This document shows, in pieces, positions 4,996-15,907 of a stretch of 64,000 nucleotides of DNA. The stretch is taken from NCBI RefSeq assembly GCF_014863545.1, contig NZ_CP062260.1, positions 4,535,001-4,599,000 of the forward strand. The letters run 5' to 3'. The translations under genes and the position numbers were made by a program. The DNA is from Paenibacillus sp. JNUCC32. Lineage in GTDB: Bacteria; Bacillota; Bacilli; Paenibacillales; Paenibacillaceae. The number at the start of each line of letters is the position of its first letter. The stretch's first letter is position 1. The notes below the pieces were generated by a model. It saw nothing but the letters and a program-made list of their open reading frames with translations. It was not told where the DNA came from and did not search any database.

Positions 4996-6174
4996 TTAAC
5001 TTAAAAGCGTTTCTGAAGCCAGCGTAAAACCTTCAATCGCGACATCTTCGTCGACTTCAATCATGATGTTGCGTTTGCCTTGGAAATTAACCTGTTTGAC
5101 ATATCTTAAATCCTGCGGGCTCACCGAAATCGTAGCTACCTTGGTTTCGATCTTGATGGATTTGGTAGTATACTTCGGCATTACGCTGGTTGCTTTCATC
5201 TCATAGTTCTTGTTGTCCACGATGGTTTCGAATGCCCGCTCCACCTTCTCGGTCGTCACGTCCTCTACGCCGCTTGCGTTCAGTACGCGCTCCAGATCTT
5301 TATAATCCAGCTTCGGAGGTTCTTCCTCCTTCGTCTCTTCGTTCATTTCGATCACCCGGTTGATTTCCTCGTACACCTGGGCAATGGTGGCTGAATCGAG
5401 CTGTTCGCCGGCCACTTCCTTGACGATATCCTCGAAGATCGCCCGCTCTTCAAGTGCCGTCACGGATCGTTCTCCGTTCAAGACCTGCTCGACAAAATGC
5501 GGATCCGGAAAATTCGATTTTCCCGTACAATACAATATACGATTCACATCGGAATAATTGTCCGTCACGCTAGGGTACAGGAATCCTTGCTCTGGCGCGC
5601 TTAACTTGATAATCGGATCTACAATGACGTTGTACTTGAACTCCCGCTCCACATAATCGAATAAGAGCGTCTTCCGTTGTTTCTCCGTAGAATTCACGCT
5701 GCATAAAATGAACGGATGGGCGAACACCTCATTCTTCTCGCTCTCTTCCGCTTCATCGTTTCTCGCCTTGGTCGGCAAATAATACTGTCCCCGAACGAAC
5801 GTGACCACCATATCCCGCTCATATTGGGCATCCTTCAGCATTCGATCCACCAGCATCAGCATCAAGTCCTGCCATTCTTCCGGATCACCCGACACGAGCG
5901 CTTGGTGAAGCATGACCTGCGCCGGTTCCTCCGCTGCTTCCTGGAACCTCAATTCGAACAATTTTTGATCCAGCTCGCCGGTCAGCAGTTTTTTGAAATT
6001 TCCCATGTATAACTCTTGCTTCTCCCGGTCCACCAGCTCGAACGGCAGGCGCTCCCAGTGATAGATTTCATTCGTTTCCTTCGTAATATAGACATTGAGA
6101 ATATCGTAAATATTCATTAAATCGTGATCCAGCTTAAATTGCTTGCGTATATTGGCGACTTCTTTTTTGTTCAT
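4996..6174 (-). CDS. DUF4317 family protein
   Basis: A 392-residue cytoplasmic protein without signal peptide or membrane span. Its opening MNKKEVANIRKQFKLDHD and its full length fit DUF4317, a Firmicutes family of unknown function. The middle contains a KQRKTLLFDYVEREFKYN segment and an acidic EETKEEEPP linker before the last domain (about residues 300-392). The gene is transcribed alone, with its own terminator. No role can be assigned from the neighbours. Confidence 0.75.
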   Translation of the reverse strand: MNKKEVANIRKQFKLDHDLMNIYDILNVYITKETNEIYHWERLPFELVDREKQELYMGNFKKLLTGELDQKLFELRFQEAAEEPAQVMLHQALVSGDPEEWQDLMLMLVDRMLKDAQYERDMVVTFVRGQYYLPTKARNDEAEESEKNEVFAHPFILCSVNSTEKQRKTLLFDYVEREFKYNVIVDPIIKLSAPEQGFLYPSVTDNYSDVNRILYCTGKSNFPDPHFVEQVLNGERSVTALEERAIFEDIVKEVAGEQLDSATIAQVYEEINRVIEMNEETKEEEPPKLDYKDLERVLNASGVEDVTTEKVERAFETIVDNKNYEMKATSVMPKYTTKSIKIETKVATISVSPQDLRYVKQVNFQGKRNIMIEVDEDVAIEGFTLASETLLS

Positions 6175-6340
6175 ATCCGATTCGGCAGCTCCTTCAATAT
6201 AATCTGGCTTAATTAGTATAAATTATTGGAACGCAAATTGGTAAGTGATCTTGGCTTGCATTGTTTCCCTGTGGCCCTGATCTTTTATTGTGGCATATTT
6301 AAATACCTGAGTCGAGTCATTTCCTAGTGGGAGCCCCATA

Positions 6341-6376
6341 CCAAAAAGAGATATCCTTACTCGAAGGATACCTCTT
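6341..6376 (-). terminator. Terminator of the AAA ATPase gene
   Basis: On the minus strand AAGAGGTATCCTT (6376-6364) pairs with AAGGATATCTCTT (6358-6346) and runs into a T-rich tail. Confidence 0.85.
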
Positions 6377-6393
6377 CTGATACTTGAACATAT

Positions 6394-7203
6394 TCATTCA
6401 AACAATCTTTGATGTTTATGGAAAAATCGATAAAAGAATCGTACATGGTCCAGCTCAAACCATTCGGCCGTTTGCAACATCTTGGCATCGAGATTGTAGA
6501 TCTTCGCATGAAGCGTACCCAGGACAAAGGGAGAATGCGTAGCAATAATAAACTGACTGTCAAAATAACGCGCCAAATCGTTCATTTGCTCGGCCAGCTT
6601 GATTTGATTCGCCGGAGAAAGCGACGTTTCCGGTTCATCCAATAAATAAAGTTTCCCGGGAAGCAAATATTCCTCAAAAAACTGCATCGAGCTTTCCCCG
6701 TTCGAATACTTCTCCTGAGCGAATTGAATGATGTCCATCTTCTTCTTGAATTCATACGACTGCTCCAGCTCTTCTACCTCGGCCTTGCTCTTTCCCTGAA
6801 CGAGCTGCTCATGCAGCAGCCCTTCGCGAAGCACGCTTTCCTGCTGTATTTTCTTGATTTCATACAACAGATCCTCCGACTTGATGTACCGGCTCCCGTC
6901 GGGAAGCTTATATAGGGGACGCTCCTGATCATCATGCCCGAGTTGATAGCTGCTTTCCTCGATAAACCGCTGCGCGTAAGCGTTGTGACCATAGCTTGTC
7001 ATTCGCTCAGCGCCCGCGATACCCAATTTGTTGGCGATCAGATTCAGCAAGGTGGACTTGCCGGAGCCGTTACTGCCGTATAATACCGTGATTCGATCAA
7101 ACAGCAGAACTTCCCCTGCCATGTGCCTGAACACATGATCGGGATATATATTCGGGTTGCTGGAAATGGTAGAAGAGAGTTTGAAGTTACTTAAATATAG
7201 CAT
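6394..7203 (-). CDS. AAA family ATPase, single-domain predicted ATPase
   Basis: A 269-residue protein with an ABC/SMC-like ATPase core. Walker A is GSNGSGKST near residue 44, a Walker-B-like strand ends in LYLLDEPETSLSP, and a switch histidine occurs in FIIATHSPFVLG. The coiled-coil-like insert (about 120-165) is rich in Glu and Lys. The family resembles stand-alone predicted ATPases (COG3910 type), some of which serve in defence or repair, but no nuclease or partner gene is adjacent here. GAGGGGAG precedes the ATG at a suitable distance, and the gene ends in its own terminator. Confidence 0.8.
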   Translation of the reverse strand: MLYLSNFKLSSTISSNPNIYPDHVFRHMAGEVLLFDRITVLYGSNGSGKSTLLNLIANKLGIAGAERMTSYGHNAYAQRFIEESSYQLGHDDQERPLYKLPDGSRYIKSEDLLYEIKKIQQESVLREGLLHEQLVQGKSKAEVEELEQSYEFKKKMDIIQFAQEKYSNGESSMQFFEEYLLPGKLYLLDEPETSLSPANQIKLAEQMNDLARYFDSQFIIATHSPFVLGTLHAKIYNLDAKMLQTAEWFELDHVRFFYRFFHKHQRLFE

Positions 7204-7459
7204 CGTCTCGCTCCCCTCTCGGAAAATGAAAATGATTCAAGTTTGATATTCGTACCTGGCCATTCTATGGATGCAACCATCCGATCTTTCTATTCAAGAA
7301 CGGTCCAAATATCCAGTGCCGTCAGACGAATCGCCTCAAACTCATGATTCCGGTACGCCCTCAAACGGTCGGTACAAGCCCTCGCTCCTGAATAAGGATT
7401 CGCAAATTGTCCGCATTGCATCTTGTTTCTTCCGCAGGATAGAGCAATAGCGACAGGAC

Positions 7460-8050
7460 CTATCCTAGCAATTCTTTAGCTCCGTTCATCACTAAGGGCA
7501 TAGTCTGTTTAACGAATGATTCCGCACTTATTAGATGCCCCTCTTTGTTCCAAGCGTAGGCCGCCCCATACATCCCCCAACTTAACATGTTAGTAGCTGT
7601 ATTTATTAAGAATTGCGCGTTTGGACTCGACAGCATCTTGTCTTTGTCTATAAAGGAAAGAAGTATCGTTTGAATTTTTTCCTTTATTTGAATTTCGAAT
7701 ACAGCCCCAAGCGATGTATACCTTCTTTTGCACATAGTGCTTAGACTCTTGTGAAAATCGCATACCCCCAGAAAAATACTCTGAATGGTTTCTTCATTTA
7801 ATACTTCGTGACCGCTTATTCTACGATTTATGATTGTCATAAAGGATTCCATTAGTCTGGCCTCTAGAATTTCGAATTTATCTACAAAGTGCGCATAAAA
7901 AGTCGCTCTGTTAACAGTAGCCCGCTCTGCAATATCCCTAACGGTTATCGATTCAAAGTCTTTTTCTTGAATTAACGAAGCAAAAGCGTCCTGAAGGAGT
8001 CGCCGTGTACGTATCACACGAGGATCAGCTTCATTTTTTTTAATTGTCAT
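7460..8050 (-). CDS. TetR/AcrR family transcriptional regulator
   Basis: A 196-residue regulator. Residues 13-60 form a TetR helix-turn-helix (ITVRDIAERATVNRATFYAHF, given in two parts: ITVRDIAERA and TVNRATFYAHF). The C-terminal part (about 75-196) is a ligand-binding helical domain. It is transcribed divergently from the nitroreductase remnant, and the gap contains two ACAAC-N4-GTTGT dyads that could be its operators. TetR repressors in this setting usually control adjacent efflux or detoxification genes, here the nitroreductase and the MFS pump. A GGGGAG ribosome site precedes the ATG. Confidence 0.85.
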   Translation of the reverse strand: MTIKKNEADPRVIRTRRLLQDAFASLIQEKDFESITVRDIAERATVNRATFYAHFVDKFEILEARLMESFMTIINRRISGHEVLNEETIQSIFLGVCDFHKSLSTMCKRRYTSLGAVFEIQIKEKIQTILLSFIDKDKMLSSPNAQFLINTATNMLSWGMYGAAYAWNKEGHLISAESFVKQTMPLVMNGAKELLG

Positions 8051-8159
8051 GGTTTTGATCTCCCCAATAAAACGACATTATAGAAGTAGTGTTGCCTATA
8101 CAACGGTTTATGGTTATTGATGATTGCGTACCATTCTGTTGTTATCATAACATATAAAT

Positions 8160-8191
8160 ACAACAGGTGTTGTTCAAACAACTAATGTTGT
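8160..8191. promoter_or_regulatory. Tandem dyads, probable TetR operator
   Basis: ACAACAGGTGTTGT (8160-8173) and ACAACTAATGTTGT (8178-8191) share the form ACAAC-N4-GTTGT with centres 18 bases apart. They lie just upstream of the nitroreductase start and between the divergent genes. A weaker related GTTG...CAAC inverted repeat is at 8091-8104. Confidence 0.55.
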
Positions 8192-8239
8192 ATTGAAACA
8201 AAATGCAGAATACCGCTTTTCCAAAAGGAGGAGAGAACC

Positions 8240-8724
8240 ATGTCGGTTTCACAACCGTCACTAACGATGGAGCACCAACTTTTTTTGATGTTATTCGGAA
8301 ACGTCGGTCGGTTCGTAGCTATGATCCCGAGATCAAGATTTCGCGGGAGGAATTGACCGAGATATTGAGGCAAGCCACGCTGGCCCCATCAGCCGCTAAC
8401 CTGCAGCCGTGGCGGTTTCTCGTTATCGATTCGCCGGCGCTGAAGCAGAAGCTGCTTCCGATCGCATTCAATCAACAGCAATTGGTCGAGGCTTCGGCTG
8501 TCATTGCGGTACTCGGAGATTTGGAGTGATATAAATTGGCCGAGAAAATTTACGGAAAGGCGGTCGATGCGGGTTACATGTCTGCAAAGACGGCAAAATC
8601 GTTCGTGGAACGCTACGTTCCGATTATGCTGATCGCCATCGGCAAGGAGGCGAAGCCCGGTCATCCGACGGTGAGGCTGGCAGTCGATGATGTAGCTTTC
8701 TTTAACGAAATGCCTAAGGAATAA
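8240..8724 (+). pseudogene. Nitroreductase-family protein, degraded
   Basis: The intended start is the ATG at 8240 behind a strong AAAGGAGGAG site, beginning MSVSQPSLTMEHQLF. A run of seven T around 8279-8285 shifts the frame; eight T would read on into FFDVIRKRRSVRSYDPEIK, the FMN-binding start of nitroreductases. The frame then runs to VIAVLGDLE, where a TGA at 8527 interrupts it. It continues as YKLAEKIYGKAVDAGYM and, after a jump, RYVPIMLIAIGKEAKPGHP. Family members have roughly 50-60 more residues at that jump, so an in-frame internal deletion is likely. Three lesions make activity improbable. Confidence 0.8.
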
Positions 8725-12821: not shown

Positions 12822-13341
12822 ACCAGGACAAATCTTTATCCCGAAATAGTAAATACAACCTGTTCAGGTCCTTGCTTTTCCTTCACTTATAGCATGTTTA
12901 AGCAGCTTAATCAAACGGCAGTTTATGTTATATCGCAGACACTTCAATGACTATATCATAATCCAGAGAGGAGCATACTCCCCATAAATTCGAAAAAAGG
13001 AGGGGCGATCGCTAGAACAAGGGCTTTAATTTCGTCCGGTTCCGTTGGCAACGAACTAAAAAGCCGTCCCGCACTGATGATTAGGGTTCGATTGCCATGA
13101 CCGCTCCCCCTCCATGATGCTTTAGAACAGCCAGTTGCAACTTTGGTAGAATGATGATCGTCTATTCTATGTGCTTCCCCTAAGGGGCATGAACTTGAAT
13201 CGGTTTTTGGATTCGATAACCACTTAAAAATAAATATATTCATAAAATTCCCATACGTTTCAACTGATGGATACTGTAATATGGATAAGTGCTTTAAGAG
13301 ATACGTATTTTTGGCAACTCGGATGGTGGATACGGAAAATT
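12822..13341. other. Intergenic region upstream of the acylation cassette
   Basis: About 500 bases with no convincing gene. A 95-codon frame on the minus strand (12956-13243) has no recognised domain and is not counted. The promoter of the MBOAT operon should lie here, but I could not single out one. Confidence 0.5.
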
Positions 13342-14535
13342 ATGATGTATACGGATTGGTTTTATTGGCTGTTCGTGTTCGTGGCTGTTGTCACGTATCA
13401 CCTCATGCCGCATCGTCTCAGACCTTGGGTGCTCTTCGCCTCAGGCGTCGCATTTTACTACAATTATGCAGGTGCTTACCTGTTCCTGTTGCTTGCGGAA
13501 GTTATCATCGCGATTATTGTCGTGAAATCTGCAGCGAAATGGAGCAGGCGATGGATTTATCCCGCAGGTATCGTTACCGCCATTCTGGTCCTTGGTTATT
13601 TCAAGTACACGAATATGATGCTGGATACGCTACATAATCTATTTGCTTTTGTTCATCAGCCCTTCTTGCCTAAGGCAGAGCAGATTGTGCTCCCGCTCGG
13701 CATTTCCTACTTTACGTTCGAGCTGATTCATTACTTGGTTGAACGCAAACGCGGAACGCTGCCGGAGCATCGGCCGGAAGGTCTGTTGTCGTTCATTTTC
13801 TTCTTCCCGTCGATGGTGGCGGGCCCAATTAAGCAATTTCAGATGTTTCATCCGCAGCTAACATCGAGATTTCACTTGGACCACATGCTGATCGGAGTCG
13901 CCCGAATCGGGTGTGGCCTTTTCAAAAAGCTCGTCCTCGCCGGATCCATTGATATGCTGGCGCAGCCCGTCTACTCAGCATCCGGCATAGCTGAGGCAGA
14001 TACCGCCAGACTCTGGATTTCGCTTGTCGCCTATACGTTCGTCATCTATTTTGATTTTTCTGGCTATTCAGACATTGCCATCGGGACAGCTCGCTTGTTC
14101 GGCATTGTCATCCCGGAGAACTTCCGCTTCCCTTATTTGGCCCGCAGCATAGCCGAGTTCTGGAACCGTTGGCACATTTCCCTCGGTTCATGGCTGACCC
14201 GCTATGTTTATTTTCCCCTCGGGGGAAGCCGTGTTCCTGCTCCCCGGGTCTATTTCAATCTGATGGCGACGATGACTGTCTCCGGCCTCTGGCACGGAGC
14301 CGCCTGGAATTTCGTCATTTGGGGCATGTTCCATGGCGTGATGCTGTGCATTCATCGCTATTATGTGAAGCAGCTAAAGCCTGCATTAAAGCCTGTTCCG
14401 AAATGGCTGAAGCCGGTAACGGTCACCGTCGCGATGTTGATCACGTTCTTCGGTGTAACGATCAGCCGCGTATTTTTCATATTGCCGATCGCAGACGGAT
14501 GGGATTTAATGCTCCGGCTGCTTGGTATGCGATAA
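13342..14535 (+). CDS. MBOAT family O-acyltransferase (AlgI/DltB-like)
   Basis: A 397-residue polytopic membrane enzyme that passes acyl groups across the membrane to an extracellular polymer. The catalytic histidine region is SGLWHGAAWNFVIWG, preceded by the conserved AEFWNRWHISLGSWL helix and YFPLGGSR, as in AlgI, PatA and DltB. I use ATG 13342 (MMYTDWFYWL) with a weak GGTGGA upstream; the frame is open to an ATG at 13267. It forms a cassette with the SGNH protein and the 61-residue protein downstream. The lack of dltA and dltC suggests the donor is an acyl-CoA rather than a D-alanyl carrier protein; that is inference. Confidence 0.9.
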   Translation: MMYTDWFYWLFVFVAVVTYHLMPHRLRPWVLFASGVAFYYNYAGAYLFLLLAEVIIAIIVVKSAAKWSRRWIYPAGIVTAILVLGYFKYTNMMLDTLHNLFAFVHQPFLPKAEQIVLPLGISYFTFELIHYLVERKRGTLPEHRPEGLLSFIFFFPSMVAGPIKQFQMFHPQLTSRFHLDHMLIGVARIGCGLFKKLVLAGSIDMLAQPVYSASGIAEADTARLWISLVAYTFVIYFDFSGYSDIAIGTARLFGIVIPENFRFPYLARSIAEFWNRWHISLGSWLTRYVYFPLGGSRVPAPRVYFNLMATMTVSGLWHGAAWNFVIWGMFHGVMLCIHRYYVKQLKPALKPVPKWLKPVTVTVAMLITFFGVTISRVFFILPIADGWDLMLRLLGMR

Positions 14536-14580
14536 GTTACCGATTGTCGAATATGGATGGAAATGGAAGTGTAAGATATC

Positions 14581-15741
14581 TTGCGTAAATTAGTTTTGAA
14601 TAAAACCGTGTCCGTCATGCTGATCTCCTTCGCCTTGGTCGGATTGCTTGGATTGAGCATTGAAGCCGATCAAGTGGTCGATCAAATGAGACAAGAAGTC
14701 GTGACGCATGCGGAAAAAGAGCTTCGCGTTCCGACATACGATGCCATTGTCTTTACGCCGTTATGGGTCGAATACTTGAAGGAGCATCCGGATGACGGCA
14801 CAAAGGTGATCGGCATGTTCGGGCCCTCCACGGTCTTCGGCACGACCGTGCAAAAGGGGGAGAATACCTCGGCCGGCGTCCTTCAAGCTCATTTGAAAGA
14901 CAGCCGCGTGATCAACCTGGGGATTTCCGGCGGAAGATTTACGGAGACTTACTCCCTGCTCGCCTCGATGATTGATGAGATTGATTTTGTCGTCTATGAG
15001 ATCAATTATGGGATCGTCGTTGTCTCGGATAATGATCCGAACGTTGTCGTCTATCCGTCGCTGGTGGAGAAGCTGGGTCAACCTATCCCGCGCAGCTGGC
15101 TGGTTGATTTCCCGGACAAAAACCGCGAATCGCTCCCAAGCAACGCCCACAATTGGGTAACGTCCCATTTTCTGAATAAGTGGGCCCTCTATCATGATCG
15201 CGACGCGATCAGCTACCGTCTGTTCAGGACTCGTACGCCGATGGAGAAAATCCGCCAGGAAGTCCACAAGAACGAAAATGAAAGAAAAGGGATAGAAGAA
15301 AGCTATACGCCGATGTATACCGCTTATGACAAAATGAATGACGCTCAACAGGAAGGCATCGACAAGCACTATGCAGAGCTTTATCGGTGGAGTAAGCCTT
15401 TTAATCAAGATCACAGCTTCGGGTTGTTCATGATTGAAAAAACGCTTGAACTGCTGCAGGAGCATCATAAGAAAGCCGTGTTCTATTCGGCTCCGCTGGA
15501 TAAAGAGCATATTGCCAACAAGAAGCTTTTCAATTGGAGCGAATATACCGAAGCGATGGGCGCTTATCAGAAGCTGGTAGAGTCGAGAGGATACCCCTAT
15601 ATCGAATTTAATCAAGAGGAGAACAATACAATCCCGCATGAATATTATCGCGACTCAGCCCATCTTATCGACAAAGGGAATAACATGTTTGGCGAAATCT
15701 TGTATATGAGGATGAAAGATAATGGAATCACAGCCCCATAG
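14581..15741 (+). CDS. SGNH-hydrolase-like O-acylation protein (DltD/AlgJ-like)
   Basis: A 386-residue protein with an N-terminal membrane anchor (about residues 9-27) and an extracytoplasmic domain. GPSTVFG resembles SGNH block I, and YYRDSAHLIDKGN supplies the DxxH pair of block V. DltD, AlgJ and AlgX proteins of this type accept the acyl group exported by an MBOAT partner and place it on the polymer. The start is TTG at 14581 with GGAAGTG about 9 bases upstream. The gene follows the MBOAT gene by 45 bases and overlaps the next gene by 20 bases, so all three are probably one operon. Confidence 0.8.
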   Translation: MRKLVLNKTVSVMLISFALVGLLGLSIEADQVVDQMRQEVVTHAEKELRVPTYDAIVFTPLWVEYLKEHPDDGTKVIGMFGPSTVFGTTVQKGENTSAGVLQAHLKDSRVINLGISGGRFTETYSLLASMIDEIDFVVYEINYGIVVVSDNDPNVVVYPSLVEKLGQPIPRSWLVDFPDKNRESLPSNAHNWVTSHFLNKWALYHDRDAISYRLFRTRTPMEKIRQEVHKNENERKGIEESYTPMYTAYDKMNDAQQEGIDKHYAELYRWSKPFNQDHSFGLFMIEKTLELLQEHHKKAVFYSAPLDKEHIANKKLFNWSEYTEAMGAYQKLVESRGYPYIEFNQEENNTIPHEYYRDSAHLIDKGNNMFGEILYMRMKDNGITAP

Positions 15742-15907
15742 CACCACATCGGCCGAAACGAAAGCCCGCAGCCTCACTCATCATGTCGGAAGGGCACTGA
15801 TCATGGTGGGAGTGGCACTTGGCGGAGCCATCGTCCTGATCGCCATCGTACTTGGTATTTTGTTCTTTTCCGGAGAAACGCAGGAATTTATTTATATGAA
15901 CTTCTAA
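15722..15907 (+). CDS. DltX-like single-pass microprotein
   Basis: A 61-residue protein with a polar N-terminus (1-22), one membrane helix (about 24-49, MVGVALGGAIVLIAIVLGI) and a short outside tail ending EFIYMNF. DltX proteins have the same build and end in a conserved F-I-Y-x-x-F motif; their tail tyrosine is reported to relay the acyl group between DltB and DltD. The start ATG lies inside the end of the SGNH gene, with GAGGATG upstream, and the frame overlap indicates coupling. Its company with an MBOAT and an SGNH protein supports the assignment. Being short, it would easily be missed or left unnamed. Confidence 0.75.
   Translation: MESQPHSTTSAETKARSLTHHVGRALIMVGVALGGAIVLIAIVLGILFFSGETQEFIYMNF

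Follow-up and report, generated by a model that had tools for sequence, protein, structure and literature searches.

The window analysed here, i.e., the whole stretch of 64,000 nucleotides from the genome of Paenibacillus sp. JNUCC32 (contig NZ_CP062260.1, positions 4,535,001 to 4,599,000; G000:C1:4535001-4599000 in our numbering), harbors a putative acyl-transfer cassette of three genes, coding for a membrane-bound O-acyltransferase (MBOAT), an SGNH-type membrane protein and a single-span microprotein whose C-terminus reads EFIYMNF (Table 1). All these elements, including the overlap of 20 bases between the SGNH gene and the microprotein gene, had been pointed out in an earlier note on this DNA and are indeed found at 13342-15907. 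The earliest start codon of the MBOAT frame lies at 13267, and the conservation among the orthologues begins at the ATG in position 13342. Pfam assigns a family to the MBOAT only, the other two proteins falling below every family cut-off. The source genome (7.0 Mb, two contigs) is rated 100% complete and contains no second copy of the MBOAT, which matches itself alone.

Table 1. Features of the cassette (positions refer to the window).
Feature	Position	Strand	Evidence or remark
MBOAT acyltransferase, 397 aa, without a C-terminal acyl-shuttle motif of its own	13342..14535	+	PF03062, E=3e-30
His278 codon (RWHIS), aligned with DltB His289 (6bug)	14173..14175	+	Invariant in alignments A3 and A5
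PLGGSR segment, residues 292-297, at the DltC-docking patch of DltB (M302/V305/I306, 6bug numbering)	14215..14232	+	
His318 codon (SGLWHG), aligned with DltB His336, presumed catalytic	14293..14295	+	Invariant in A3 and A5; role inferred from DltB/PatA
SGNH-fold extracytoplasmic transferase, N-terminal helix, 386 aa, TTG start	14581..15741	+	
Ser83 codon (GxSTVFG), presumed nucleophile	14827..14829	+	Invariant in 16 orthologues; role inferred
Asp358-x-x-His361 codons, presumed catalytic pair	15652..15663	+	Invariant in 16 orthologues; role inferred
DltX-like single-span microprotein, 61 aa, ATG start, predicted N-in/C-out	15722..15907	+	
FIYMNF C-terminal hexapeptide codons; Tyr58 (15893-15895) presumed acyl carrier	15887..15904	+	

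The SGNH gene is present in seven of 100 genomes of the same genus, that of the window included (one of the seven, G138, has an estimated contamination of 10%), and in all seven the order MBOAT, SGNH, microprotein is identical, the contig of G055 beginning within the MBOAT. Among 84,980 named species, each represented by one genome, 15 loci were retrieved (14 from Paenibacillus and one from Neobacillus mesonae), each with the complete trio of genes and a microprotein ending FIYM[ND]F. The two sets sum up to 22 loci, 18 of which are non-redundant, since four genomes are common to both. The earlier note had proposed to look in related cassettes for such a short frame and for the motif at its end, and both turn out to be conserved, a microprotein with the FIYM[ND]F end being found in 22/22 loci, that of the window included. 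The flanks are shared by G002 and G006, and the upstream gene by G010 and G030; because the immediate neighbours otherwise differ between genomes, the conserved unit consists of the three genes.

The microprotein is 60-62 residues long across the seven cassette genomes, and 20 of the 62 columns of their alignment are invariant, eleven of them within the final fourteen residues. In the hexapeptide, F56, I57, Y58, M59 and F61 never change, and N60 is replaced by D in one sequence; the tyrosine of FIYxxF is kept in all the 18 non-redundant microproteins. Judging from the codons of these 18 sequences, the gene is under purifying selection, with a median ratio of non-synonymous to synonymous substitution rates (dN/dS) of 0.20 (39 unsaturated pairs out of 153), and, in the last 22 codons, proportions of non-synonymous (pN) and synonymous (pS) differences of 0.096 and 0.75, respectively. 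The detector used for the microprotein gave no match in 440 mononucleotide shuffles of the cassette loci. A profile search in a set of 5.8 billion proteins retrieved 45 proteins, i.e., 39 clusters with E≤4e-17 and lengths of 57-62 residues, and six shorter proteins (40-46 residues), likewise ending FIYM[NK]F. In all the 18 microproteins the flank on the N-terminal side of the span (net charge 0 to +6) is more positive than that on the C-terminal side (-1 to -3), and the tail is therefore predicted to lie outside the cell. The idea that such a gene is easily missed does not hold, for it is annotated, many of its relatives bearing the name "hypothetical protein" in the NCBI annotation.

The earlier note had described the cassette as lacking dltA and dltC, and this can be extended from the locus to the whole of the seven cassette genomes. 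DltC (TIGR01688, E≤0.001) has no match in any of them, the same model recovering the positive controls in B. subtilis and L. lactis, and no protein of the seven exceeds the DltA cut-off (TIGR01734, 559.85 bits). The matches below the cut-off are other adenylate-forming proteins, the best one being a frame of 1276 residues in G010 (323 bits); those of the source genome reach 309 bits (a frame of 1248 residues) and 131.5 bits (a stand-alone frame of 489 residues). A substitute ligase resembling aminoacyl-tRNA synthetases (aaRS) was found in none of the seven genomes, and a dlt operon hidden elsewhere in the source genome was searched for and not found. Finally, the microprotein of the window does not match PF12459 (DltX), a model that recognizes two canonical DltX controls at 4e-17 and 7e-9.

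Related MBOATs were retrieved by searching the window sequence against 249 genomes of its class and a profile against 398 genomes of the phylum, the phylum search being limited to at most four candidates scored per genome among the matches listed. Short MBOATs that are not DltB-like were found at nine loci in the class and 15 in the phylum (L087-L095, L147-L160, and L162), short piece-like hits of 285-369 residues having been left out of the sample. Among these detected loci, 24/24 have a separate FIYxxF microprotein on the same strand within 1.7 kb, and the detector found one in 480 shuffles of the split loci; the microprotein of L095/L163 is visible in the raw sequence and was also found by the detector. 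These split microproteins are 34-62 residues long, and that of L087 gives a sub-cut-off match to PF12459 (E=0.019). The nine split MBOATs that were aligned are 35-39% identical to that of the window. In 22 of the 23 split-cassette genomes no DltC exceeds the cut-off; the exception, G235, harbors a separate true dlt operon, and weak sub-cut-off DltC matches occur in G246 and G257. Long MBOATs, instead, bear FxYxxF on their own C-terminus in 64/64 cases (24/24 in L007-L030 and 40/40 in L107-L146, the latter being 40 of the 79 class-search hits with an open frame of at least 450 residues), and a separate microprotein was found beside none of the 12 fused-tail loci with long flanks, the end of the MBOAT itself being left out. 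The exceptions to this dichotomy are L064, L070 (5666-7162), L071 (a frame broken in two) and L096 (a piece of 306 residues). In L070 (G097, 5666-8605) two MBOATs stand in tandem, one of 480 residues with a tail and one of 499 residues ending PFLFGF, without the tyrosine, which might serve as a partner with no acyl-carrying role.

The AlphaFold model of the window's MBOAT (mean predicted local distance difference test, pLDDT, 89.7) has DltB as its top PDB match (8jem/6bug, template modelling score, TM, 0.77), and the PF03062 match, the fold and the invariant H318 place the protein in the MBOAT superfamily. Its C-terminus is LMLRLLGMR, and the FxYxxF tail is present in 0/22 orthologues; orthology with the fused MBOATs is ruled out by this missing tail. 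Orthology with DltB is ruled out by score, since the protein reaches 181.4 bits against the NCBIfam DltB equivalog, whose cut-off is 375, although the tree, taken alone, would permit the two to group deeply within the DltB half. The DltB residues modelled in contact with DltC include, in the L. plantarum numbering of PMC9338922, Met298, Val301 and Phe302, which we offset to M302, V305 and I306 of 6bug. At this position the window's MBOAT reads FPLGGSR, and the pattern PLGG[SNG][RK] occurs in 18/18 MBOATs of its own type, 22/23 split ones and 56/66 fused ones, and in 0/9 DltB and 0/19 aaRS-type proteins (described below), the docking pattern YMRxV being found in 9/9 DltB sequences and in no member of any other group (0/18 of its own type). 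Because the PLGG segment occupies the carrier-docking site and the YMRxV pattern is absent, the MBOAT resembles at this site the kind that works without a carrier.

As for the SGNH protein, Pfam returned a sub-threshold GDSL match only (E=0.28) and no match to PF04914 (DltD); the predicted model, however, displays the SGNH fold, and the Ser and Asp-x-x-His residues are present, which assigns the protein to the SGNH hydrolase fold. The list of structures matching the model was not taken as excluding any SGNH family. A search of PDB sequences with its profile gave only antibody noise. When the profile was compared with those of other groups using hhalign, 12 SGNH proteins of split cassettes scored 99.8% (E=5.8e-28, 310 columns), eight DltD sequences 42.5% over 109 columns, and three SGNH groups adjoining fused MBOATs 0.2-2.3%, two of these groups consisting of two sequences each.

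The notion of an acyl shuttle is said to originate from Schultz et al. 2023 (Nat Microbiol). The acylation of the tyrosine of FXYXXF is published chemistry for both DltX and PatA (PMC12148441), and according to the published rule a separate microprotein of the DltX type occurs only in the carrier-dependent Dlt system, the motif being fused to the MBOAT in MBOAT/SGNH systems of the acyl-CoA type. Like the Dlt core (DltB-DltD-DltX), the cassette combines an MBOAT, an SGNH protein whose full-length model resembles DltD most, and a separate single-span FxYxxF microprotein; unlike it, the cassette genomes lack DltC and any DltA over the cut-off, the MBOAT lacks the docking pattern, and the microprotein and the SGNH protein match neither PF12459 nor PF04914, so that D-alanine is not implied. 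With PatA/PatB, AlgI/AlgJ/X and PatA1/PatB1 it shares the absence of a carrier protein, a presumed acyl-CoA donor and the FxYxxF tyrosine motif, and with the fused-tail O-acetyltransferases sampled, the PLGG[SN]R segment; in contrast to the fused PatA/AlgI type, it bears the motif on a separate microprotein rather than on two extra helices of the MBOAT, and its SGNH protein has no match to the DHHW/AlgX-type nor to two other SGNH groups found beside fused MBOATs. Defining features of each type having been tested and not found, the cassette belongs neither to the Dlt nor to the fused PatA type. The split cassettes of other Bacillota have the same short MBOAT with the PLGG segment, a related SGNH protein and an FIYxxF microprotein, and differ in their gene order, which is mostly SGNH-MBOAT-microprotein, and in their tails, which are mostly FIY[TNRQ]xF. 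Since a 2025 paper describes the non-Dlt MBOAT/SGNH pathways as devoid of a DltX-like microprotein (PMC12148441), and the cassettes analysed here have one, they represent a third layout. No earlier report of the split layout emerged among the open-licence literature matches listed, a search outside which most subscription papers lie.

The cassette likely works like both the Dlt and the PatA types, the relay being a known one and its layout new. In the reading that we favour, with a probability of about 0.7, the three proteins form an acyl relay that probably runs from acyl-CoA via Tyr58 to the SGNH protein and from this to an envelope polymer. By analogy with DltX and PatA, the MBOAT would draw the acyl group from a cytosolic donor, probably acyl-CoA, and pass it via its lumen to Tyr58, on the outer side of the membrane; the tail of the microprotein would then swing to Ser83, the next acceptor, and the SGNH protein would transfer the acyl group to a hydroxyl of the polymer. 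The acylation of Tyr58, the catalysis by His318 and the role of Ser83 are all proposed from the work on DltX and PatA. The donor is probably acyl-CoA, because the known carriers are absent and because of the analogy with PatA, and acetyl would be the default acyl group. The acceptor might be, at a guess, the secondary cell-wall polysaccharide, because genes for polysaccharide pyruvyl transferase (PF04230) lie near the split cassettes of L088 (8582-9709) and L152 (6584-7666), and a frame similar in appearance lies near that of L089 (9847-10986). The earlier note had proposed a relay of this kind and had seen in it an extension of the DltX mechanism beyond D-alanylation. The conservation of the motif, the absence of a detected Dlt supply and the fused-type segment of the MBOAT speak for the relay; its chemistry, however, had already been extended by PatA (PMC12148441), and the novelty claimed for it was overstated. 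The novelty lies in the layout, with a separate microprotein serving a system without a carrier, the tyrosine-relay chemistry being already published.

Several observations weigh against this reading. The case for acyl-CoA rests on the missing known carriers, and a carrier might act in trans, AcpP or those of non-ribosomal peptide synthetases (NRPS) being candidates; the source genome has the stand-alone adenylate-forming frame mentioned above (131.5 bits vs a cut-off of 559.85); and, in the nine of the 23 split-cassette genomes searched for it, the aaRS-like ligase gave a strong match in G257, a distant one in G239 and none in the other seven. A Dlt-like acceptor would fit the DltD-like SGNH model equally well. 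In the MBOAT tree (98 of 137 rows, the fused, own and aaRS types having been thinned, and L071 and L096 dropped) the Paenibacillus clade falls on the fused/split side, with a placement that is not firm, since the approximately unbiased (AU) test allows it to be joined either to the split clade (p=0.486) or to the DltB half (p=0.501). The contact between Tyr58 and His318, moreover, is a predicted one. Some of these points, i.e., the likeness of most of the SGNH model to DltD and the outcome of the AU test, together with the 181 bits scored against DltB and the adenylation domains of NRPS-like frames and of the stand-alone frame (all under the DltA cut-off), might be explained by a reduced Dlt system, in which the trio would borrow a carrier from fatty-acid or NRPS synthesis and add D-alanine or another amino acid. 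This appears unlikely, as the DltB score is far under the cut-off, the DltC-docking pattern is missing in 18/18 MBOATs, neither DltC nor an aaRS-like ligase is found in the seven cassette genomes, and a DltC over the cut-off is lacking in 22/23 split-cassette genomes.

It might also be proposed that the microprotein merely holds the MBOAT and the SGNH protein together, the acyl group passing directly from enzyme to enzyme, a possibility that draws on the fact that the acylation of Tyr58 is here deduced from other systems. We consider this slightly less probable than a reduced Dlt system, because the tail is the most conserved part of the microprotein (median pN 0.096 in the last 22 codons vs 0.33 in the frame without its first seven codons), the tyrosine is kept in 18/18 sequences although a scaffold would have no need of FIYxxF, and the MBOAT is without the tail that its long relatives keep. 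A short gene overlapping another one might, lastly, have arisen by chance or be in decay, next to an AlgI/SGNH pair of the ordinary kind; its retention in all the loci, the low dN/dS, the empty shuffles and the 39 clusters of the protein set lead to the rejection of this explanation, whose residual probability is negligible.

The 22 loci of the Paenibacillus type and the 24 loci of other Bacillota break the published rule on separate microproteins. If the acyl relay is true, a carrier-bound donor and a separate shuttle, thought to be linked, come apart; many short "hypothetical proteins" would acquire a function, and a small trimer would be available for dissecting transmembrane acyl transfer. 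A more tentative idea, to which we grant somewhat less than an even chance, is that the trio is a relay core whose donor is interchangeable and need not be D-alanine, wired to acyl-CoA in the window's cassette and in the split clade, to DltA/DltC, or, in the operons of L052-L069 and L097, to a ligase of the aaRS-like kind and the carrier encoded with it. In that case, shuttle microproteins would form a family spanning the phylum, with DltX as one of its branches, the fused tails of PatA and AlgI being the other solution.

The genes adjacent to the cassette are ordinary, i.e., a tRNA dihydrouridine synthase (PF01207, 11823-12821, minus strand) and an SF0329-family gene (PF25753, 16015-16665, minus strand). 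The immediate neighbours differ in the other six cassette genomes, an SF0329-like gene lying about 7 kb off in G002 and G006. A scan for promoters and terminators gave sites no more numerous than in shuffled sequences.

Two further arrangements were observed alongside. In other families of the order and of the class (L052-L069 and L097; as an example, L060:5815-9587), a Dlt-like operon is provided with a different loader, a class II aaRS-like ligase of about 400 residues matching the amino acid:[carrier protein] ligase of PDB 3mey (E=1.8e-26), accompanied by a carrier protein (PF00550), a DltB-like MBOAT, a DltX-like microprotein mostly ending FTGxGxFIYExF, and a protein of about 310 residues that has no Pfam match and is presumed from its position to be the SGNH protein. 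The five core genes are complete in 18 of the 19 loci; in L064 (G103, 5666-6907) an MBOAT of this type stands without the operon, a microprotein of the same type lying 5.4 kb off at 191-298. The operon looks like a system for the aminoacylation of an envelope polymer, with the aaRS-like enzyme replacing DltA, and no published report of it was found among the literature matches listed; that of L060 adjoins an FG-GAP repeat protein. In L101 (5222-7729; G264, class Bacilli), a second set of MBOAT, SGNH protein (DltD, PF04914, E=3e-85) and microprotein (FIYSEF) is located immediately upstream of a complete dlt operon, with which it may share DltA and DltC, or it may use another donor.

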